Assembly: GCA_013213905.1 (NCBI GenBank)
Contig: JABSSQ010000507.1
Span: forward strand, 1-34,291
Reading direction: 5' to 3'
Source: Verrucomicrobiales bacterium
GTDB taxonomy: Bacteria; Verrucomicrobiota; Verrucomicrobiia; Verrucomicrobiales; DEV007
DNA: 34,291 nucleotides
Part shown: positions 2,461 through 17,429 of the stretch, one piece after another
Layout: every line of letters begins with the position of its first letter
Position numbering within the stretch: the first letter of the stretch is position 1
The notes under the pieces: generated by a model
Seen by the model: only the letters and a program-made list of their open reading frames with translations
Databases searched by the model: none
Told to the model about the DNA's origin: nothing
Made by a program: the position numbers and the translations under genes

Positions 2461-3651
2461 ATGAAAATTGCTCTCTCCACCAGCGTGATCGATCGCGGCA
2501 AATCAGGTGTCGCCCGCTATGTCATCGAAATCACGAAAGCCATCCTGCACCGCCTCGGAACGGATCAGTTTATCCTGTTCGTTCTTGAAGACGACCTGCC
2601 GCTTTTTGCTTTTGCTGAGAAAAAAGCAACGATTGTCCCGGTCAAAGAAATCTGGCGTCGTCCGGTTCTGAATATCGTCTGGCACCAGATGGTCCTGCCC
2701 CGGCTACTGAGTCGTCATCGAGTCGACCTGCTGCATGTTCCCAGCTATCGCCGCATGGTCTGGCATGCGCCATGTCGAAAAGTGGCAACCATACACGACC
2801 TCGCCCCTTTCAGGCTCAGCGGAAAGTATGACTTCCTCCGCATGATCTATGGCCGCTATGCTGCCAGAGCACTCGCCCGTCGGCAGGATGCTATTCTCAC
2901 GGTCAGCAACTACACTGCCTCCGACATCGAAGTGTTCTTCGGTATTCCGAAGGACAGAATTCACGTTGCCTTTAACGGACTCGATCACGAACGCTTTTAC
3001 CCACGCACCGCGCACGGATCTCAAGTCGGTCGCAATCTATACTTCCTATATGTTTCGAGGCTGGAACATCCGGCCAAAAATCACGTTCGCCTGATCAAAT
3101 CTTTTAACCACTTCAAAGACACCACCGGTTCGAAGTGGAAGCTGGTTCTCGCGGGTGGCGACTGGCATGGCTCAGAGATCATCAAAACATCGGCCAGAAA
3201 CTCACCGCATGCCTCATCCATCGAGCTCCCGGGTTTTGTCCCGGACCAAGAGCTTCCCGAGTTATACCGAAATGCAGGCGCTATGGTCTACCCCTCACTG
3301 TTTGAAGGCTTCGGGCTGCCTCCCGTTGAAGCCATGGCCTGCGGCTGCCCGGTGATCAGTTCAGACCGCGGATCGCTTCCTGAAATTACAGGCAAGGCCG
3401 CCCTGCTCGTCAATCCCAACTCAGCACGTGAGCTCGAGTCAGCGATGACTCGGATTGCTACCGAGGCATCTCTGCGAAATGACCTCACGAGCCTTGGAGT
3501 CGAACGCTCGCGATGCTTCGACTGGAACACAGCCGCGGAGGTTACCTTAAAGGTTTTCCGAGCAAACTTGAAGCCTCCAATTGGGGGGATTGAGGAGAAT
3601 CTCTCTCAATCGCATGCTCACACGAGCAAACCACCATGCCTTCCCCTGTAG
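2461..3651 (+). CDS. GT4-family glycosyltransferase
   Basis: A 396-residue GT-B glycosyltransferase of family GT4, expected to work on the cytoplasmic side on a lipid-linked glycan. The N-terminal domain begins MKIALSTSVIDRGKSGVARY, the glycine-rich acceptor-side loop typical of mannosyl/rhamnosyltransferases. The donor domain shows YVSRLEHPAKNHVRLI and the E-x7-E block YPSLFEGFGLPPVEAMACG followed by SLPEITGKAALLVNP. Length is normal for the family. It starts 3 nt after the previous stop and its last 16 nt overlap the following gene. The C-terminal ~25 residues after the catalytic core (Pro/His/Ser-rich) look unconserved, and the DNA encoding them carries a palindrome described separately. 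The ATG at 2461 is the natural start because the Rossmann beta-strand begins directly at residue 2. Sugar specificity is unknown. Confidence 0.9.
   Translation: MKIALSTSVIDRGKSGVARYVIEITKAILHRLGTDQFILFVLEDDLPLFAFAEKKATIVPVKEIWRRPVLNIVWHQMVLPRLLSRHRVDLLHVPSYRRMVWHAPCRKVATIHDLAPFRLSGKYDFLRMIYGRYAARALARRQDAILTVSNYTASDIEVFFGIPKDRIHVAFNGLDHERFYPRTAHGSQVGRNLYFLYVSRLEHPAKNHVRLIKSFNHFKDTTGSKWKLVLAGGDWHGSEIIKTSARNSPHASSIELPGFVPDQELPELYRNAGAMVYPSLFEGFGLPPVEAMACGCPVISSDRGSLPEITGKAALLVNPNSARELESAMTRIATEASLRNDLTSLGVERSRCFDWNTAAEVTLKVFRANLKPPIGGIEENLSQSHAHTSKPPCLPL
3574..3590. promoter_or_regulatory. palindromic element CCTCC-AATT-GGGGGG upstream of the export fusion gene
   Basis: An imperfect inverted repeat, CCTCCAATTGGGGGGAT, lies about 45 nt before the ATG at 3636, inside the unconserved tail of the preceding glycosyltransferase. 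It matches the element at 7371 in 15 of 17 positions, including the whole ATTGGGGGGAT half. Its placement before an export gene suggests an operator or a 5'-leader hairpin. That function is inference; the repeat itself is seen directly. Confidence 0.5.
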
Positions 3652-6623
3652 CATTAACCGGGCATCACTCGCATCAAGAAAAACACGATGCGGCTGCTCT
3701 TCGTTCATCAGAATCCCAGTCAATCGGCTCCCATCGGGGGATTGCGCTGCCCTTCGATCTTCTTAAAATTGTTGACTTGATCTTCGCTAAACGATGGTAT
3801 GTGCTCGCGGCCGGGATGGTAGGAGCCACCCTTCTCGGCATTTTCGCTTTCCTCCGGGTGGAAACACGACATACCGCGACAGCCCAGTTGATTAAACTCG
3901 CTCCCCAGAACTCCCTTCGCCAGAGCGAACAAGGCGACCCCTACACCCCCCGCGAAATGACAATCCCTAACATGGTGTCAATCATGTGGTCGAGACGCGT
4001 CATTGAAGGAGCAGTCGAACGACTCTCCGGCTCCGTAAATGAGGTCATGCTTCGCAAAGGCCTCTCCGTTAATCCTGAACGAAACACAGACATCATTCAC
4101 GTTTCCATCAACTCCGACAAGGATCGTAAAACTTCACTCGCCACCCTCGATGCTTACATCGACGAAGTGCTTGAGTTTTCCCGCCAGATTCAGCAACACG
4201 ACGCCGGAGCTATGGTTAAACTGCTCAGTAAGGAGATCGATCATACAGATCAGGAAATCGACCGGCTCAACCTCCAGCTTCTCACCTATTCGAAGAAAGA
4301 AGGCATCGTCAACCCTGACAAACAGACCGATTCTCTACTTGGCGAAATAGCAAACTTGAACCTGCGTTACCACGAAATTCGACTCGATTATGAAACTCTT
4401 GATTTGAGAATTGGCGAGATCGAAAGCGAACTCTCAAAAGTGAGCCCGGTTGCAGCAAAGCTTCACGATGCCCGCGAAAACCTCGCCACCATGCGCCTTC
4501 GCTACACCGAAGAACACCCCACCTTGCAAAACGCAATCGCGGCAGTAGCCGCTCTCGAAGCAGAGGTAGAAGCTGAAATGGCCGCGCCAGTTCCTGCCGG
4601 CCCTCCCCGACCGGGTGAAAACACCATCGCCGAAAGCCTCTATCTGGACCTCGTCATGCTGCGCGGTGAGAAGCGGGCTCTCGCCGAACAGCTCATCAGG
4701 CTGAGCGAAGTCCGTGTCGAAGTCGACGAGCGACTTAATCAACTGCCAAGAAAGACAATCGAAATCGCACGAATCCAAGCCAAGAAAAGGGCGACAGAAA
4801 CCTCACAGAATCTCCTCGCAGCACGCCTGCGCGAAGCCATGCTGGTGGAGAAAAGCGCTGAAGGCACCTTTCGCCTGCTCTCCAAGGACCGTCTCAACGA
4901 TGTCAGGGTCATCTCCCCGATGCAGAAAACTATTATCGCCGCTGGCGCAGGCTTCGCCGGAGGTGCCGGGATCATCTGCCTGATGGTCATATTTTCCGCC
5001 CTGGCCAGCCCAACAGTTGGTTCAGCTCATGGCCTCAAGCGCTTGTCTAAACTTCCTCTTCTGGGCAAAGCCGAACAGAAAATCCTCGATGATCCCGGAC
5101 AGCGCAAAAAATGGGCATTCAATTCGTGGACCACGCTTTCCCCCCAATTGAAGAGACGGTCGACAGAGCATGCCATTCTTTGTGGAATTATCTGCGAAAC
5201 GAACAGCTTTATACCCCGCCTACTCACGGAAGCTGCCGCGAGACGAGGAGCTTCTGCCCTCCTCATTTCCCAAGAAAAATCAAAGCACTCCATTGATCTT
5301 GAGTGGGCCATCAATAATTTGGATAAAACCGTAAAAACACTAACTGAACAACCAGAACAAATCTTGAATCTTCACCTGGGGAGCCAATGGTCCTGGAACA
5401 CGGACCAAAGAAAGCGCCTCAAAGAAGCTCTGCAGAATTGGGAAGACTACGGCCGACTGGTAATCTTTATTGAATTGTCAGACCCGGGGGCGCCCGAAGC
5501 TCTCCTGGTCTCAGAGGATCTTCCAAATCTGATTTGGGTAGCACGCAGCGAAAGTGATGCCGCAGTCATCTCCGAGCAAATTCGTCTTTACCGCTCCGCG
5601 GGTTGCTCCCTCTCTGGAACTCTGCTCGAATCAGCACCGAGCTACCGACTCTCCGTTTTGAAGCATTTTGAGAAATTCCTCGCTGCTGTCACTATCAGCC
5701 TGACCTCCCTGATCTCTATTCCGGAAGCAACTGCCTCGGATCTATGCCTTCTGGGTCCCGGAGACAAAGTGAATATCAATTTTGTCGGCGCCCCTGAGTT
5801 ATCCAGAGCAGGGGTCACGATCGGTCCGGACGGAACCCTGACCTACCTGCAGGCCCAATCGATCTCCGCGTCCGGTCTCAGTATCGACGGCCTTCGCAAA
5901 GTGCTGAACTTCGAGCTTCGTGAATACTACCAAAACGCCCGCATCTCGGTGACCCCGCTTCTCTTCCGGAGCAACCGGGCTTACGTGTTGGGCAAAATCG
6001 TCAAGAAAGGAGCCGTGCCTCTCGACCGCCCTATGAGGATTACGGATCTGGTCGCTGCAGCCGGAGGCCTTGAGACCGGTTTGTTTCAGCAGAATACCGT
6101 GGAATTGGCCGATCTTCGGCGAAGCTTTCTGGTGCGTCAAGGCGAAAAACTCAGTGTCGACTTCGAAGCCCTGTTCTTCAAAGGAGACATGAGTCAGAAC
6201 TATTTTGTCCAGAGTGGAGACTATCTTTACTTCCCCTCAGCAAACTCCAACGAAATTCACGTTTTCGGAAACGTCAAAATGCAGGGAACTCAGGGCCTGC
6301 TTGCCCACACATCCGTCCACAGTGCCATTGCCCAGGCAGGGGGATTCACCGAAAAAGCCTACCGAAACAAAGTTCTCGTGATTCGGGGATCGCTCGAATT
6401 CCCACAAACTTTCGTGGTCGATATGGACGCGATTCTCGCAGGCAAAGAGGTTGGTTTTCAATTGGAGCCCAAAGACATCGTCTACATTGCTGACCATCCG
6501 TGGGCTCGAGCAGAAGAACTTCTCGCCATGGCAATCGACACCTTTTGCCGCGGTGCGGTCTCATCTTGGGCCGGACTCAACGTCGGGCCTTTCATCTACA
6601 ACCCCATTCTCCCCCAACGTTAA
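3636..6623 (+). CDS. PCP (Wzz/Wzc-like) - degenerate BY-kinase - OPX (Wza-like) fusion protein
   Basis: This 995-residue protein combines machinery usually split between two or three proteins. After a short cytosolic tail, TM1 (about 53-75, RWYVLAAGMVGATLLGIFAF) leads into a periplasmic Wzz/coiled-coil region rich in Glu/Leu heptads (about 180-420). TM2 follows (about 431-455). Residues ~510-670 have the outline of a BY-kinase (CpsD/Wzc) domain but lack a Walker A GKS/T loop, the DxPP-type Walker B and a C-terminal Tyr cluster, so it is probably inactive. A third hydrophobic stretch with a signal-peptide-like end (LKHFEKFLAAVTISL...PEATAS, 675-701) precedes an OPX domain (702-995) starting LLGPGDKVNINFVGAPELS with SLBB-like repeats. 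The topology is consistent: the OPX part would be periplasmic. ATG 3636 is the only in-frame ATG before TM1. Expected role: chain-length control and export of the EPS. Confidence 0.88.
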   Translation: MPSPVALTGHHSHQEKHDAAALRSSESQSIGSHRGIALPFDLLKIVDLIFAKRWYVLAAGMVGATLLGIFAFLRVETRHTATAQLIKLAPQNSLRQSEQGDPYTPREMTIPNMVSIMWSRRVIEGAVERLSGSVNEVMLRKGLSVNPERNTDIIHVSINSDKDRKTSLATLDAYIDEVLEFSRQIQQHDAGAMVKLLSKEIDHTDQEIDRLNLQLLTYSKKEGIVNPDKQTDSLLGEIANLNLRYHEIRLDYETLDLRIGEIESELSKVSPVAAKLHDARENLATMRLRYTEEHPTLQNAIAAVAALEAEVEAEMAAPVPAGPPRPGENTIAESLYLDLVMLRGEKRALAEQLIRLSEVRVEVDERLNQLPRKTIEIARIQAKKRATETSQNLLAARLREAMLVEKSAEGTFRLLSKDRLNDVRVISPMQKTIIAAGAGFAGGAGIICLMVIFSALASPTVGSAHGLKRLSKLPLLGKAEQKILDDPGQRKKWAFNSWTTLSPQLKRRSTEHAILCGIICETNSFIPRLLTEAAARRGASALLISQEKSKHSIDLEWAINNLDKTVKTLTEQPEQILNLHLGSQWSWNTDQRKRLKEALQNWEDYGRLVIFIELSDPGAPEALLVSEDLPNLIWVARSESDAAVISEQIRLYRSAGCSLSGTLLESAPSYRLSVLKHFEKFLAAVTISLTSLISIPEATASDLCLLGPGDKVNINFVGAPELSRAGVTIGPDGTLTYLQAQSISASGLSIDGLRKVLNFELREYYQNARISVTPLLFRSNRAYVLGKIVKKGAVPLDRPMRITDLVAAAGGLETGLFQQNTVELADLRRSFLVRQGEKLSVDFEALFFKGDMSQNYFVQSGDYLYFPSANSNEIHVFGNVKMQGTQGLLAHTSVHSAIAQAGGFTEKAYRNKVLVIRGSLEFPQTFVVDMDAILAGKEVGFQLEPKDIVYIADHPWARAEELLAMAIDTFCRGAVSSWAGLNVGPFIYNPILPQR
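5658..5660 (+). other. possible internal TTG start for a free OPX protein
   Basis: This in-frame TTG would begin a polypeptide with a textbook signal peptide: a basic n-region (KHFEK), a 14-residue hydrophobic core, then PEATAS before the OPX domain. No convincing Shine-Dalgarno sequence precedes it (only GAG about 16 nt upstream), so internal initiation is a possibility, not a call. The alternative is signal-peptidase cleavage of the fusion, or no processing. Confidence 0.25.
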
Positions 6624-6681: not shown

Positions 6682-7353
6682 ATGTCCGACTCGGAATCCA
6701 TGAGCAGCGACCGTATCCTCAGGATCGGGATCATCGAAGACGATCCCACCCTGCGCCTTTTCGTCACCCGCTTGATCGAAAAGCGTCCCGAGACTTTCAA
6801 ACTTCTCGGCGCCTGGGAAACAGCCGAGGATGCTGTCAAACCCTGCCTCAATGAGAAGCCCGATGTGGTCGTCGTCGATCTTGAGCTACCGGGGGTCTCC
6901 GGTATTGAGTGGATCAACGAGATCTCACCTCATCTGCTCAACACTGCTTTCGTCGTCCTTACCGTTCACGACGCTCCCAAGAAAGTTTTTTCGGCACTTC
7001 GCGCGGGAGCGAGTGGCTACCTCTTGAAGACGTCCAGCCCCGCCGAAATTGCCGATGGCATTCTGCAAGCCGCTGAAGGTGGTGCTCCTTTGAGCCAGGA
7101 TATTGCTCGGCTCGTCATTCAGTCTTTCCAGGAACCGGTCGAGAAAAAGAAGAAGGAGATCCCCGGGCTAACCCCCCGGGAAAGCCAGATCCTTGAGCTC
7201 CTTGCCGAAGGTCTTGTTCCCAAAGAAGTCGGTTACAAGCTGCACATCAGCTACGAGACCGTCAGGGACTACCTCAAATCGGTGTATCGTAAACTTCACG
7301 TGAGATCGCGCACCGAAGCGGTGATCAAGTATCTCCAATACACCGACGAGTGA
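6682..7353 (+). CDS. NarL/LuxR-family response regulator (orphan)
   Basis: A 223-residue two-component response regulator. The receiver domain (about 13-130) shows the acidic pair E19-D20, phospho-acceptor D66 in VVVDLELPG, T94 in VLTVHD and K116 in YLLKTSS, so it looks phosphorylatable. A LuxR-type helix-turn-helix follows (about 160-218): LTPRESQILELLAEG, then VGYKLHISYETVRDYLKSVYRKL. No histidine kinase is adjacent. I chose the ATG at 6682; ATG 6700 is also possible. The longer open frame back to 6451 overlaps the previous gene and adds unconserved residues. It sits between the two OPX-encoding genes, so control of EPS export is the natural inference; the palindromes at 3574, 7371 and 11404 are candidate binding sites. 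Confidence 0.9.
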   Translation: MSDSESMSSDRILRIGIIEDDPTLRLFVTRLIEKRPETFKLLGAWETAEDAVKPCLNEKPDVVVVDLELPGVSGIEWINEISPHLLNTAFVVLTVHDAPKKVFSALRAGASGYLLKTSSPAEIADGILQAAEGGAPLSQDIARLVIQSFQEPVEKKKKEIPGLTPRESQILELLAEGLVPKEVGYKLHISYETVRDYLKSVYRKLHVRSRTEAVIKYLQYTDE

Positions 7354-7420: not shown

Positions 7421-8572
7421 ATGGGTCTACTGTCCTCACAGCTCCCTTTTTCACTCCTTTCCCGGTGGCGCATTCCATCGAGACACCTTCTCATGTTCGC
7501 GGCTATTCTGTGCCTGCAAAGCCTGACCTCATGTCTGCGGCAACAAAAAAGCACCTTTGATCCAAGAGGCTCGAAAAACCCGGCAGCCAACACTGGGCCG
7601 AGAGCGATCGATCCGGCGTTTGCAAAAGCGCAAGCCTCCCAACCGCCCCCGGAATTGCTCTCACCACCCACCACCGACTATGTGCTTGGCCCCAAAGATA
7701 AGATTGAAATCGAATTGTTCGATGAGCCAGGCTCGCGAACTGAAACCTTCGTAACGCCGGATGGCCGAGTCTATTTTGATCTCCTTGGAGGAGTCCTTGC
7801 GGAAGGAAAGTCAACCAGCGAACTGAAGACATCTCTCGAAAATGAGCTCTATCGCTACTACCAGAATCCACAGGTCGGGGTGACTCTTGTCGAAGCCGAA
7901 AGCCAGCAGTTCACCGTTCTAGGGCGTGTCAACGCTCCCGGAAATTACCCGATACGAGAGCCACTGAAAATCCTTGACGCCATCGCCGTGGCCGGAGGTC
8001 TATTCACCTCTCGATTCACCGGCACCACGGAAGAACTGGCAGATCTTCAACACAGCTTCATCGTTCGCGATGGTCAAATGTTACCCGTCGACTTCCAGGC
8101 CCTGATTCGAAACGGGGATCTTTCACAGAACATCTACTTAAAGCCAAATGACCTCCTCTACCTGCCCTCCGCATTGACCAACGAAGTCTATGTCCTCGGA
8201 GCTGTGACAGAGCCCCGTCCCGTTGGCTTCATGAACGAAATGACACTCACGGCTGCTCTGGGCCGGGGTCTTGGAATCCTCAGAACCGCCCATCTTGATC
8301 AGGTCGCTATCATTCGCGGCTCCCTTACCTCACCCCGCATCGCCATCGTCGACGCTGCCGCCATACTTCGAGGTGAAGCAACTAACATTCGCCTCGAACC
8401 CGGAGACATTGTTTACCTGCCTGGAGAAAAAGTCATTTCCGCTGATCAAATTGGACGCAACGCTGTGGACACCTTCGTCCAGGTGGTCGCCGCCAACGAA
8501 GGTGCCAATGCAGGCGTTGGAGCCGACAATGCTTCGCGCGTTGGAGTCACCGTTCCTCTCGGAGTCCAGTAA
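7421..8572 (+). CDS. polysaccharide export (OPX/Wza-like) outer-membrane lipoprotein
   Basis: A 383-residue OPX protein with an N-terminal lipoprotein signal: basic segment (RWRIPSRH), hydrophobic core and lipobox LTSC with Cys at residue 38 when counted from ATG 7421. Starting at the ATG at 7493 would leave the signal without positive charge, so 7421 is preferred. The polysaccharide-export domain begins YVLGPKDKIEIELFDEPGSR and is followed by SLBB-like repeats (QFTVLGRVNAPGNYPI, VYVLGAVTEPRPVGF) and LEPGDIVYLPG. It should be lipid-anchored in the outer membrane and form the export channel or periplasmic adaptor for the polysaccharide. It is clearly paralogous to the C-terminal domain of the 3636 fusion: both share (V)ELADL-x-x-SF, L-x-VDF-x-AL and DLSQN/DMSQN blocks in the same order. 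The next gene begins 2 nt after its stop. Confidence 0.92.
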   Translation: MGLLSSQLPFSLLSRWRIPSRHLLMFAAILCLQSLTSCLRQQKSTFDPRGSKNPAANTGPRAIDPAFAKAQASQPPPELLSPPTTDYVLGPKDKIEIELFDEPGSRTETFVTPDGRVYFDLLGGVLAEGKSTSELKTSLENELYRYYQNPQVGVTLVEAESQQFTVLGRVNAPGNYPIREPLKILDAIAVAGGLFTSRFTGTTEELADLQHSFIVRDGQMLPVDFQALIRNGDLSQNIYLKPNDLLYLPSALTNEVYVLGAVTEPRPVGFMNEMTLTAALGRGLGILRTAHLDQVAIIRGSLTSPRIAIVDAAAILRGEATNIRLEPGDIVYLPGEKVISADQIGRNAVDTFVQVVAANEGANAGVGADNASRVGVTVPLGVQ

Positions 8573-12317: not shown

Positions 12318-13112
12318 ATGAAAACCCTATGTCGAAAATATAAAATTTCCAAATCTTCTGTGCTCCTGCTTCAAGCCGGGATCCTTGCGCTGCCGCTTCT
12401 GGCGGCAGCGCAAAGTGATCTCCCTGAGGGGCTTTACAACGTCGAATTCTCTCAACAGGAACTGAACCGGATTCAGGAACTTTTCCCGGAAAGAGGTGGG
12501 ATCAATCCCAGCTATATTCATTCCCAGACAGATCCTAACTTGATTCTACTCGACGACGCCGAAATCTCGGTCACTTTTATCGACGAAGGTGCCGGATACC
12601 GGAACTCTTTCGGTTACTTCCTCTACGACTCCGAGGGAACTGTCCTCTACGAAGAAACCCTCTTCAACAATGCTTCAAAGATCGGCTCCGGCGGGTCGCT
12701 GAGGGCGGGCGACACACTCGACATCGGGACTTTCGAAGCGGGATCGCAAATTGGTTTTTGGCTCCAAGCCGGAGGTTATGACAACCCTAACGGGTATACC
12801 TACTACACAATCGACTCGCTCAACCCGGATGGCCTGCGCCATATGGCGATCGCTTCCGATGAGACGAACGAACGCCTCGTCATCGGGATTGAAGATCTTT
12901 ACGGACTAGGAGACGAGGACTACAACGATATCATCTTTACATTTTCGGCAACTCCATTTTCGGCGATCGACCGCAGCAACATCCCGACTGGGACGCCCAC
13001 TCCCAGCGCGGCGGCAGTTTCTCTGATTGGCCTCGCAGTTCTCTACCTGAAGCGCCGGCGCCGCAAATCGACACTCTGCGTCGCCGGCACACCAGGTAAT
13101 CTCACTGACTGA
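12318..13112 (+). CDS. DUF4114 surface protein with PEP-CTERM-like sorting tail
   Basis: A 264-residue exported protein. Residues 1-31 form a signal peptide (basic start, then VLLLQAGILALPLLAAAQ). A DUF4114 domain occupies about 85-215 and includes the acidic, probably Ca-binding signature IEDLYGLGDEDYNDIIF near 190. The C-terminus has the tripartite layout of exosortase substrates: a short motif (TPTPSA, a variant of VPEP), a hydrophobic helix (AVSLIGLAVLYL) and RRRRK, followed unusually by about a dozen more residues. The exosortase about 3.3 kb downstream is the likely processing enzyme, which would cleave near the PTPS motif after export. It could be an EPS-associated matrix or surface protein. 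It starts 13 nt after the GT2 stop and ends 6 nt before the TPR gene. Confidence 0.85.
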   Translation: MKTLCRKYKISKSSVLLLQAGILALPLLAAAQSDLPEGLYNVEFSQQELNRIQELFPERGGINPSYIHSQTDPNLILLDDAEISVTFIDEGAGYRNSFGYFLYDSEGTVLYEETLFNNASKIGSGGSLRAGDTLDIGTFEAGSQIGFWLQAGGYDNPNGYTYYTIDSLNPDGLRHMAIASDETNERLVIGIEDLYGLGDEDYNDIIFTFSATPFSAIDRSNIPTGTPTPSAAAVSLIGLAVLYLKRRRRKSTLCVAGTPGNLTD

Positions 13113-13118
13113 AGGCCC

Positions 13119-15335
13119 ATGTCCGCGAAACGCCTTGTTTTCATTCTGCTGATTGTGCTCACTGCAGGCACGACAGGCGTCCTCATTTACCTGATGGGAG
13201 CAGAACGCTCATTGCCCTCCCTCCTGGCCGAGGCAGAATCTCTCGAAAAGGGAGGTGATGTTAGAGGCGCTGTTTATCTTCTTCAGGAGATTTTAACCGA
13301 GGACCCGCATCACTGCGAGGCGCTGAGGCGACTGGCAACTTTAGCAAGAGACCAGGGTCAGTTCCGGGCTGCGGCCGGCTACTGGCGAATCCTGAGAGGG
13401 CTCGAGCCTCTCAACTCCTCTGTTCGCGAAAAGGAATTTGTGAATCGCCTTGCCTACGGCGATTTCCGCACCGTGATTGAGTCACTCGAAGGCCAAGGTC
13501 AGAATGTTCAGACCAGAAACGAGAACCTCCTCCTCGCACGGGCTTTTCTCCAGTCCGGTCGTAGCGACGACGCCCAAGCATTGTTGACTCAGGCCCTGGC
13601 AGACAACCCGTCGGACGAGACGGCCAGGCTTCTTTCGGCAGATATTCAATTCGCCAATGGGGAGACTGAACTGGCAGAGAGACTTTACCGTGACCTCATT
13701 TCGACACCGACTGTCGCTGCGGCTGCCAATATCGGAGTCGGTAACTGCCTTCTGGCTGCTCGACCTCATCTCGCCAAGAGACCTTTCGAACTCGCTGAAA
13801 ACCGTTTCAAACTTGCTGTCGAACTCGAGAAGGGCTCATTCCAGGCGGCCAGAATTCTCGCAAATCACTACCGGAATCTCGGCGAAACTGAAAAGGCAAC
13901 CCGCATCTGGTCCAGCCTCCGAAAACGATACCCATGGGCACCCGAAGTAATCATTCCGCTGGCGGAGTGCCTCACCGCCGAGGGAAGCATCTCAGAAGTC
14001 ACGACCCTCATCGAAGAACTTCCCGGAGGAGTCGGAGGCGTCAGTCTTCGTCACTACCTCGAAGCTATCCTGGCCCACTCTCGGGAAGAATACGACACAA
14101 CCCTTCAGTTTCTTGGTTGGAGCCGCGAATTTGCCGGATCGAGGCCCCTCTTCCAGTGGCTGGAACTGGAATCCAGCATCCGATCAGGTGACCTGGCGAG
14201 GGCACGACAAGCCTTTCGAAAACTGGATGAGACTCGCTCCCTCTCCTGGAGCGGCGATCGCGTTGTTTCGTTTCTCGAAGAATCATCCTACGAAGCATGG
14301 GAGGGCAACGAAATCGCACTGGCAAAGTCCCTCAGCAAATGGTTGCTGGAGTTGCAACCAGCCAATCAAGTGGCTCGGGTGAATTTGATGCGACTCACAC
14401 TCTCCGACGGGCGCTGGAATGAGGCAAGATCGCAAGCTAATGATATTCTGGCAGTCTATCCAAACAGCGAAGCTGCTTTAGAAGTCCGCGGCCGCGCCCT
14501 CCTCGCTCTGAGAGAACCAGAGGCAGCCGAGGAAGACTTCGCTCGACTCATCTCCATCAATCCGGGATCACCCTTGGGAGAATACTGGTTAGGAGTGGCT
14601 TTCTCGCGACGCGGCCATTTCAACCAATCCGCAATCCACCTGGAGAACGCACATAGAAGATACCCCGAGAGCCTCAAGATCTCCGCCGCATTATATGCTG
14701 TCTACCTCGAAACCGATAACGCCACCAAAGCACTGTCTCTGGCTGAACAGCTCACTTCGCAGTCATCGGGCCTTAATCAGTCGGTTGGTCACTCATTCCG
14801 GGCCGGGATTCATCGAATCAATGCTGAACCTGCTTTGGCGATCAAAGAGTATCAGCTGGCAATTAATGCCGCGCCCAACCGAATTCCCTACTACCTCGCA
14901 AAGGCCGACATCGAAATGGAGTCAGGCAAGTACAGAGAGGCCAGAGTTACCCTCGGAAGCGCTCTTCGCATCGACTCTGACCACCTCTACACCCGCTTTA
15001 AAATTGCTCTTTGCGAACATCGATCTGGCGCCCGTGAAACCGCTATCCAACTCTACCGGAACCTGCTGCAGGACTATCCGGACTGGTCTCTCGTCCTTGT
15101 GAATTTGTCCGGGCTGCTCTGCGAAGACCCTCTCGAAAAGACGGAAGCGGTCTCACTCGCCCAGCGCGCTGTCGACCTCACCCCAAACTGGGCAGAGGCG
15201 CATTATCACCTCGCGGAAAGCCTCCGGGCTAACAGTCGCGATGAGGAAGCTCGCTCGGCATACGAAAAAGCACTTTCCCTCGACAAAGACCTCGCTTCGG
15301 CAAGCAGCGCACCCATTGAAGGTGAATCACTCTAA
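13119..15335 (+). CDS. membrane-anchored TPR protein of exosortase/EPS locus (PrsT-like)
   Basis: A 738-residue protein made almost wholly of tetratricopeptide repeats, after an N-terminal signal anchor (KRLVFILLIVLTAGTTGVLIYLM). Many ~34-residue units are visible, for example AEAESLEKGGDVRGAVYLLQ, GSPLGEYWLGVAFSRRGHFN and WAEAHYHLAESLRANSRDEE. It resembles the PEP-CTERM-system TPR family (TIGR02917, PrsT), but no lipobox Cys follows the hydrophobic segment, so it is probably tethered by the helix rather than by lipid. TPR proteins in EPS systems act as periplasmic scaffolds linking polymerase, co-polymerase and export channel, which fits this setting. A GAAGG sequence precedes the ATG at good spacing, and the next gene begins 5 nt after the stop. 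Confidence 0.88.
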   Translation: MSAKRLVFILLIVLTAGTTGVLIYLMGAERSLPSLLAEAESLEKGGDVRGAVYLLQEILTEDPHHCEALRRLATLARDQGQFRAAAGYWRILRGLEPLNSSVREKEFVNRLAYGDFRTVIESLEGQGQNVQTRNENLLLARAFLQSGRSDDAQALLTQALADNPSDETARLLSADIQFANGETELAERLYRDLISTPTVAAAANIGVGNCLLAARPHLAKRPFELAENRFKLAVELEKGSFQAARILANHYRNLGETEKATRIWSSLRKRYPWAPEVIIPLAECLTAEGSISEVTTLIEELPGGVGGVSLRHYLEAILAHSREEYDTTLQFLGWSREFAGSRPLFQWLELESSIRSGDLARARQAFRKLDETRSLSWSGDRVVSFLEESSYEAWEGNEIALAKSLSKWLLELQPANQVARVNLMRLTLSDGRWNEARSQANDILAVYPNSEAALEVRGRALLALREPEAAEEDFARLISINPGSPLGEYWLGVAFSRRGHFNQSAIHLENAHRRYPESLKISAALYAVYLETDNATKALSLAEQLTSQSSGLNQSVGHSFRAGIHRINAEPALAIKEYQLAINAAPNRIPYYLAKADIEMESGKYREARVTLGSALRIDSDHLYTRFKIALCEHRSGARETAIQLYRNLLQDYPDWSLVLVNLSGLLCEDPLEKTEAVSLAQRAVDLTPNWAEAHYHLAESLRANSRDEEARSAYEKALSLDKDLASASSAPIEGESL

Positions 15336-15340
15336 TCTCG

Positions 15341-16477
15341 ATGAAGACTGCGCTTGGCCTACTCTGTTTGATCGCTGCCGCAGCATGGCAGTTCGATTGG
15401 ATCATCGATGCGTGGAGCCACTCCCCGTTGGATCGAAACGGGCCTTACTTCTTTTCGTTCGCTGTCATCTCTGGAATCGTAGGAGGAGTCTTGACCCGCC
15501 ATCTCAGCACTCAGCCGGACCTCACCGGACTCTGGGTCCTGTTCCCTGCCACCGCCGCAATGGTTCTATGCTGCACTCTTGATCTGCGTCTTGGTTACTA
15601 CCTCAGCTGGCTGGCCGCAGTCATGGCTTTCACTTGGACTCGCTGGGGCTGGCCCGCGGCTTTGTGGATCATGCCGCTGCTTGGTATCATAGCCCTCGGG
15701 CTGCCAGTCACCGGCTACCTCTTGAAACTTTCCTCCATCGACATTCCCGGCCTCAACCTCCTCTCGGGATTTGGAATCAAATGCAGTCTCCTCACTGTCC
15801 TCGCAGGAACCTTCTTCTACACCTCAATTCTGAATTCCAAGTCGAGACCGGTCTGGCTGACCCCCTCACAACTTTTCTTTGCCTCCGCCACCTTCCTGAC
15901 TCTCGGATTCCTTGTCGCACAAACCGAAGCAAAAAAGTTTCACAGGGCTTTTCTTCCATTTCCTCCCGACAGTTTACAAACTTCGAATTGGGCCGGAAAC
16001 ATGCTCCCCCTTTCTAATTCAGAAGAAGACGGTTTCGAAGGGACTCAACTGAACAAATATCAGTTCTCCAACCGCTCTGGAGAGACCCTAACACTGTCCG
16101 TTCTGTCGGCCGGAAACTACCCCCGGAGCCTTCACCCCCCGGAATACTGCCTGCTCGGAAGCGGATGGAAAATTAAGGAACGCCTGATTGCCAACCTGCG
16201 GGCCGGGGATACTCCTATCAGAGTTTCTTCATTGGTTTTTCAACGAGATCATCTCAGACTCTACGGAGTCTACTGGCTCAGCTCTCCGGATAGATCGACT
16301 TCCAGCCATGCTGCATTTCGGAGGTCCGGGAAGGCGCTGAAAAACGAGCAATGGCACCTTTTTTTCCTGACCACTCCGACCGGTTCGGAATCGGGTCTTT
16401 CACATTCCCGAATCGAGAACTTCCTCTCCGACTTGACTTCTTCCGAGGGCCTCTTCTCCAGCCATGCCAGCCGATGA
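15341..16477 (+). CDS. multi-pass membrane protein with C-terminal EpsI domain
   Basis: A 378-residue protein. About seven hydrophobic segments fill residues 1-205 and a soluble domain fills 206-378. The soluble part is EpsI-like, the exosortase-associated domain recognised by the SLHPPEYCLLGSGWKI block (H-P-E-x-C ... GW) followed by a short beta-rich end. The membrane part has features of the N-terminal half of exosortases (DWIIDAWSHSPLDRNGPYF, then MPLLGIIALGLPVTGYLLKL) but stops before any ACSG/Arg/His catalytic motif. EpsI is found either as a separate exported protein or fused to the C-terminus of an exosortase; here it seems to be attached to a non-catalytic exosortase-like half. Its last 14 nt overlap the exosortase gene, pointing to translational coupling and a likely complex. 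Confidence 0.8.
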   Translation: MKTALGLLCLIAAAAWQFDWIIDAWSHSPLDRNGPYFFSFAVISGIVGGVLTRHLSTQPDLTGLWVLFPATAAMVLCCTLDLRLGYYLSWLAAVMAFTWTRWGWPAALWIMPLLGIIALGLPVTGYLLKLSSIDIPGLNLLSGFGIKCSLLTVLAGTFFYTSILNSKSRPVWLTPSQLFFASATFLTLGFLVAQTEAKKFHRAFLPFPPDSLQTSNWAGNMLPLSNSEEDGFEGTQLNKYQFSNRSGETLTLSVLSAGNYPRSLHPPEYCLLGSGWKIKERLIANLRAGDTPIRVSSLVFQRDHLRLYGVYWLSSPDRSTSSHAAFRRSGKALKNEQWHLFFLTTPTGSESGLSHSRIENFLSDLTSSEGLFSSHASR

Positions 16478-17429
16478 TCCAAAATCCGCCAGAGGATCAC
16501 TGCGCATAGCGAAGCCGAAGCAACTCATTTTCCCTCTTGTTGTTTGCACTCTTTCCGCCTGCTCGGGATGGAAGGCCAGCCAGGGAGGAGAATATCTTTT
16601 GGCCCAGGCGATGCTCTGGCTGACCGCGTCGACCCTGCTTTTCGGGAGAATCGCCCGAATCCCCCTGAACTCGACTCCGCGAGGTGCTATCCGTTCAAGC
16701 CTATGGTTGCTTCTCGCCCTCCTAATTGCCTCGACGGGTTCCCGGCAGACCCTATCGGTGCCGTGGCTGCTCTCCACACCGCTCCTCTGCATCGCCATCG
16801 GGATCGTTCAGTATTGTTTCGGCAGCAAGGCCGTGCCACCTGTCCTCGCGCCACTGCTCGTCCTTGTAATCGCCGTTCCACAGCTCCCCCTTCTGCTCGA
16901 AGCAGCCAGTCTGCCGCTCAGGATGATCTCCACTCAACTTTCCGGGCTACTCCTCACCTTCACAGGCGTTCCCACAGAAACATTCGGAACAGAGCTCTGG
17001 CTTGGCAAGGAACGAATAGCTGTGACTTCTGCATGCAGCGGCATTTCCTCTCTGGAAAGCCTGCTCTGGCTGGGGTGGATCATCGTAATCCGGCAACAGC
17101 CGCCGGGGCTTCCCAGGCTGTCGACTTACAGTTTCCTGATTCCCTTGGTGATTGCCGGAAACACTCTCAGAATCTCACTTCTTGTTCTCGCGACCCGAAT
17201 CTTCGGCCCTGAAATACTGAGTTCCCCTCTTCACATGCAGACGGGATGGCTGACAGCAGCCTTAACTTTTCTTGCCTTCATAGGTCTTTCCAGCTTCGTC
17301 ACACCGATCTTCCAAAAGCCTCGTGCGATCGCAAACCTCGACGCCGGTAGGACCTCATCGCAACGCCAAACAAAGGTTGGATTCGATCCAACACCGGCGC
17401 AATCTGAGATATCATCTTCAGGGCAATGA
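16464..17429 (+). CDS. exosortase (archaeosortase/exosortase family transpeptidase)
   Basis: A 321-residue integral membrane cysteine enzyme that cleaves the C-terminal sorting tail of exported proteins and probably transfers them to a surface anchor. All three catalytic residues are present in family order: C191 in VTSACSGISSLESL, R236 in AGNTLRISLLV and H257 in PLHMQTGWL. About eight membrane helices are predicted. The N-terminal 17 residues are hydrophilic, and the C-terminal ~40 residues are a polar cytosolic tail. It overlaps the EpsI-domain gene by 14 nt and ends the EPS locus. Sub-family assignment (XrtA etc.) is not possible here; unlike XrtA it carries no fused EpsI domain. The DUF4114 protein at 12318 is the only tail-bearing substrate seen in this window. 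Confidence 0.93.
   Translation: MPADDPKSARGSLRIAKPKQLIFPLVVCTLSACSGWKASQGGEYLLAQAMLWLTASTLLFGRIARIPLNSTPRGAIRSSLWLLLALLIASTGSRQTLSVPWLLSTPLLCIAIGIVQYCFGSKAVPPVLAPLLVLVIAVPQLPLLLEAASLPLRMISTQLSGLLLTFTGVPTETFGTELWLGKERIAVTSACSGISSLESLLWLGWIIVIRQQPPGLPRLSTYSFLIPLVIAGNTLRISLLVLATRIFGPEILSSPLHMQTGWLTAALTFLAFIGLSSFVTPIFQKPRAIANLDAGRTSSQRQTKVGFDPTPAQSEISSSGQ

Follow-up and report, generated by a model that had tools for sequence, protein, structure and literature searches.

The window analysed here, a stretch of 34,291 nucleotides from the genome of a Verrucomicrobiales bacterium, contains on its forward strand one uninterrupted frame (3636-6623) that encodes 995 amino acids without an internal stop. 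Open reading frame, profile and fold matches identify it as a gene for a polysaccharide co-polymerase (PCP), a BY-kinase-fold domain and an OPX protein (OPX1) in a single chain; a sequence-only reading of this DNA had listed a PCP, a pseudokinase and an OPX domain in one frame, and the list was right. From its N terminus the product has a first transmembrane helix, TM1 (residues 53-74; 3792-3857), the periplasmic domain of the PCP, which has long helices (residues 78-426; 3867-4913), a second transmembrane helix, TM2 (residues 428-456; 4917-5003; both helices as assigned by AF2/DSSP), the BY-kinase-fold domain (residues 458-669; 5007-5642), a predicted internal signal peptide (residues 675-700; 5658-5735) that ends at a signal peptidase I (SPase I)-type site, ATA/SD, between residues 700 and 701, and the predicted mature OPX1 (residues 701-995; 5736-6620). 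Within OPX1 lie Poly_export (5748-5954), SLBB_2 (5976-6230), SLBB (6258-6389) and a predicted C-terminal helix (residues 959-982; 6510-6581), an element that in Wza-like OPX proteins forms an outer-membrane barrel.

The OPX part has the Wza-like make-up of Poly_export and SLBB domains, with strong Pfam matches (Poly_export, residues 705-773, E=1.4e-12; SLBB_2, 781-865, E=8e-17; SLBB, 875-918, E=4e-12). The Wzz profile PF02706, suggested earlier as a check alongside the OPX profiles, stayed below its cutoff on the fused protein (14.1 bits versus 25.5, E=0.06), and the PCP part is fitted instead by the XrtA chain-length determinant TIGR03007 (residues 41-478, E=9e-16), also under its curated cutoff. 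Structure prediction of the full protein bore out the domain assignments. The AF2 model, built from 26 aligned window and GTDB homologues, has a mean pLDDT of 77 and a pTM of 0.37, so the relative placement of its domains is unreliable; residues 42-673 align to Wzc (Z ~19.8, with a high rmsd across the whole span), residues 697-954 align to Wza (Z 13), and the PCP periplasmic domain matches Wzc, KpsE and Wzz. As modelled, the PCP part has the PCP-2a (Wzc-like) layout, with two transmembrane helices around a helical periplasmic domain and a kinase-fold domain after them.

The cytosolic domain matches BY kinases structurally in this model (residues 458-669; CapAB Z 20.1, Wzc kinase Z 19.5). A Pfam search of the window's cytosolic domain alone gave no match, and a profile of twelve homologues of the domain matches CapAB (E=2e-4) and Etk. 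An active BY kinase has Walker A, A' and B motifs and a Tyr-rich tail; the window's domain has neither Walker A nor a Tyr tail, its C terminus continuing into the signal peptide, and Walker A' and B were not recognisable among the fused sequences inspected. The fold is present and the catalytic motifs are missing, as in a BY pseudokinase, and before cleavage a free Tyr-rich tail is impossible in any fused protein. An intact-looking Walker A (e.g., GEGKS or NEGKS), lost in the window's clade, is kept in six fused relatives (L040, L041, L066, L072, L076 and L087), where nucleotide binding may therefore persist.

Downstream of the fused gene, on the same strand, lie a NarL-type response regulator recognised by its REC and LuxR HTH profiles (6682-7353, start codon assigned by eye) and a second, separate OPX gene, OPX2 (7421-8572), whose Wza-like product (profiles; Wza Z 16) is a lipoprotein with the motif LTSC and Cys38 as its lipobox cysteine. 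The sequence-only reading was correct in calling the OPX domain of the fused protein complete, and it had overlooked this second OPX. OPX2 follows in every fused locus whose contig extends far enough, and its C38 is nearly invariant. To judge from ORF spacing, OPX2 lies directly after the fused gene, or overlaps it, in several other Verrucomicrobiota loci. Elsewhere in the window, a glycosyltransferase is fused to a WecG/TagA-type domain in a single frame (499-2457), and the EPS genes are followed (12318-17429) by genes for a DUF4114 protein whose end appears to be PEP-CTERM-like, for PrsT-like TPR and EpsI-like proteins and for an exosortase.

Recurrence of the fusion and its unfused relatives

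The fusion is not peculiar to this contig. Relatives were surveyed, and GTDB was scanned with two OPX peptide patterns taken from fused proteins; together these searches yielded 35 distinct fused sequences, counting the window, and the junction was read in each. Whole-genome surveys covered Verrucomicrobiota; an even draw across the phylum found the fused gene in 4 of 289 genomes and gave two further homologues, which brings the distinct fused homologues in Verrucomicrobiota to 37 counting the window. Two genomes with the fused gene, G111 and G248 (the latter from the even draw), consist of a single contig. The window itself belongs to a metagenome-assembled genome (MAG) of 535 contigs, a setting in which an assembly or sequencing error could join two genes; with the same fusion in many independent assemblies, including these two single-contig genomes, we give that explanation practically no weight and reject sequencing error. 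Both grounds on which the fusion had been held open to doubt, a stop or start lost to error and homologues that are always two genes, are thus removed by the 37 fused homologues. In a codon comparison of nine pairs, pN/pS across the junction was 0.18-0.57; the frame there is therefore under purifying selection.

Two of the fused genes (L072 and L073) come from MAGs labelled Akkermansia muciniphila. These labels may be wrong, because the cps1 locus of A. muciniphila Muc-T is described with Wza and Wzc as separate genes (PMC13343947).

In relatives that fall outside the fused groups, each of PCP, OPX1 and OPX2 has its own gene, and in three of these loci (L079, L095 and L096) the PCP stop and the OPX1 start overlap by 4 bp (ATGA). 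Two of them, L079 and L096, also have the pseudokinase domain, whose end falls close to where it does in the fused proteins, and their OPX1 starts behind it, at the spot that corresponds to the fused joint. Most unfused OPX1 proteins open with a signal peptide of the SPase I type, which ends in a small-x-Ala type site and lacks a lipobox. On the tree of the OPX1 domain, four switches between the fused and unfused states are required, at least two of them forced by well-supported branches, and the tree does not reveal their direction. An unfused OPX pair is also present in the genome of the window itself, on another contig (C254; L004, 1197-3473), and the first member of this pair has an LQA/Q-type signal peptide.

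The third hydrophobic segment

Between the pseudokinase and OPX1 lies a third hydrophobic segment, which is best read, from its sequence features, as the former signal peptide of OPX rather than as an ordinary membrane anchor. In the window it has a charged start, a short hydrophobic core and an Ala at -1 of the site ATA/S (residues 700/701); there is no Cys at +1 and hence no lipobox. The sequence-only reading had noted the segment and overlooked this site. The joint has the features of an SPase I substrate, namely n-region charge, a short h-region and small-x-Ala at -3/-1, and in all 37 fused homologues, the window included, we could assign n-region charge, a short hydrophobic core and an (A/V/T/L/M/G)-x-A site, with Ala at -1 in every one. 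The sites themselves vary (ATA/S in the window; VQA/A, AQA/Q, TDA/Q, AFA/A and others elsewhere), and 24 of the 35 fused proteins whose joint sites were tabulated have Q or A at +1; that table was assigned by eye, L069 having been misplaced by the script, and an automatic scorer picked another nearby site in several of the proteins. Shared ancestry explains part of this conservation.

A small-x-Ala motif alone is weak evidence in Ala-rich helices. A cruder first scan found such a motif near TM1 in 23 of 34 proteins and near TM2 in 19 of 34, and failed to separate the third segment from these two helices because they are Ala-rich. A home-made SPase score, written after the result of that looser scan, takes a hydrophobic core and a polar c-region into account as well. 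Its medians were 10.6 for the third segment and 10.3 for the signal peptides of unfused OPX1 (p=0.52); those of TM1 and TM2 were lower, 7.6 and 7.3 (p<1e-6 each). Given an ad hoc score, overlapping distributions and homologues that are not independent, these p values are guides only. In the AF2 model the third hydrophobic helix, present along with TM1 and TM2, comprises residues 673-692, and residues 688-702, around the site, are disordered (pLDDT<50). A gene of the signal peptidase I family is present in the window's genome.

Probable cleavage, with tethering and internal initiation as less likely readings

We consider it probable that the gene encodes a polyprotein, from which SPase I cuts a PCP-pseudokinase and a periplasmic OPX1 made in a 1:1 ratio, OPX1 then being stacked between PCP and OPX2. 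On this reading an XrtA-type PCP with a BY pseudokinase is joined in frame to the adjacent gene for periplasmic OPX1, whose Sec signal peptide is kept internally. Once TM1 and TM2 had inserted, the coiled-coil domain would lie in the periplasm and the pseudokinase in the cytoplasm, and the internal signal peptide would then take OPX1 across the membrane. A cut by signal peptidase I after Ala700 would free OPX1 in the periplasm and leave the signal peptide on the PCP as a third, C-terminal span. Synthesis as one chain would fix PCP and OPX1 at 1:1. In the exporter, an exopolysaccharide system of the Wzx/Wzy type, OPX1 would be stacked above the PCP and beneath OPX2, the lipoprotein of the outer membrane. 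The frame, its domains, the unfused relatives and the conservation of both fusion and site are observed, whereas we infer the cleavage, the stoichiometry and the stacking; since a conserved SPase I-type site lies at the join, two separate mature proteins are the most likely outcome.

The sequence-only reading had instead proposed that PCP and OPX form one covalent unit; on that view the third segment would be a permanent anchor in the mature envelope and each octamer would bear its own tethered OPX ring. A single frame is indeed maintained in many genomes, and a hydrophobic helix of 15-20 residues is able to span a membrane. The join nevertheless resembles the signal peptide of unfused OPX, with an equal score and an SPase I-type site, Ala at -1, assigned in 37 of 37 fused homologues, and in the window's clade the distances are unfavourable as well. 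From the assigned site to the LGPGD that starts the OPX core there are 5 residues in the window, and this linker is no longer than 8 residues in 13 of 35 fused proteins. Five extended residues reach ~20 Å, whereas the longest PCP helix in the AF2 model has 59 residues and would measure ~88 Å if straight, so that an OPX1 anchored at the inner membrane would be unable to reach the apex of its PCP and cap it. In the E. coli complex, Wza sits on Wzc, octamer on octamer (PMC12881504). As far as the model goes, this geometry argues for cleavage in the window's clade, and it does not apply to the fused clades with linkers of 45-102 residues, often Pro-rich, which could serve as tethers. An uncleaved product strikes us as unlikely for the fusion in general, and we find it equally unlikely that in at least some clades, those with the long linkers, cleavage is absent or partial, a covalent PCP-OPX bridging the periplasm with its OPX1 ring tethered to the PCP octamer under the OPX2 pore.

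Separate OPX1 could also come from an internal translation start, such as the TTG at 5658, which would yield an OPX1 with its own signal peptide, so that fused and free forms both exist. Read from this TTG, codon 675, the signal peptide looks normal, and the OPX1 of L079 and L096 begins at the corresponding place. A Shine-Dalgarno-like motif precedes an in-frame start in only 3 of 35 fused genes, however, and while 31 of the 35 have a start codon near the joint, the other 4 have none. For these reasons internal initiation may occur in individual cases; as a general account of the fused genes we hold it to be quite improbable and reject it.

Comparison with known systems

A polyprotein of this kind has a parallel in another pathway. 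The FbcH precursor of cytochrome b/c1 in Bradyrhizobium comprises a membrane protein and a protein with a signal peptide in one chain, which is cut at the internal signal peptide. This cleavage has reportedly been demonstrated by experiment; the pathway is unrelated to PCP-OPX export, and the cut proposed here is read from the sequence. The literature searched yielded no case of an inner-membrane PCP fused to an OPX.

The closest likeness in architecture is to Wzc and Wza of E. coli (PMC12881504). The PCP shares with Wzc two transmembrane helices, long periplasmic helices and the BY-kinase fold, and OPX1 shares with Wza the Poly_export domain, two SLBB domains and a C-terminal helix, predicted in the case of OPX1. 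In E. coli, however, Wzc and Wza are separate genes, Wza is a lipoprotein and Wzc has kinase activity and a Tyr tail, whereas here PCP and OPX1 share one frame, the kinase is degenerate and a second OPX is the lipoprotein. If the protein is cut, it would be a bacterial polyprotein that fixes the synthesis of PCP and OPX at 1:1, which fits the octamer-on-octamer arrangement of Wza and Wzc (PMC12881504), and natural evidence for which OPX pairs with which PCP. If it is uncut, models of periplasmic bridging will have to be revised.

PCP-2 systems with BY pseudokinases are known, among them EcpK/EpsV, HfsB/HfsA, joined PCP-pseudokinase polypeptides and stand-alone BY pseudokinases (PMC12004946). 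Because such proteins are known, the joined PCP-pseudokinase part is not new, and like them it has the BY-kinase fold without catalytic motifs or a Tyr tail. What sets the present protein apart is the OPX domain behind the pseudokinase, which is not described for those systems in the parts of PMC12004946 consulted. The gene set as a whole resembles an XrtA/PEP-CTERM-type EPS cluster: the best named matches include the XrtA chain-length determinant and the XrtA export protein, and genes for PrsT-like TPR, EpsI-like and exosortase proteins follow in the window. It differs from such clusters in that the scores are under the equivalog cutoffs and that there PCP and OPX form separate families, which here are joined in one frame.
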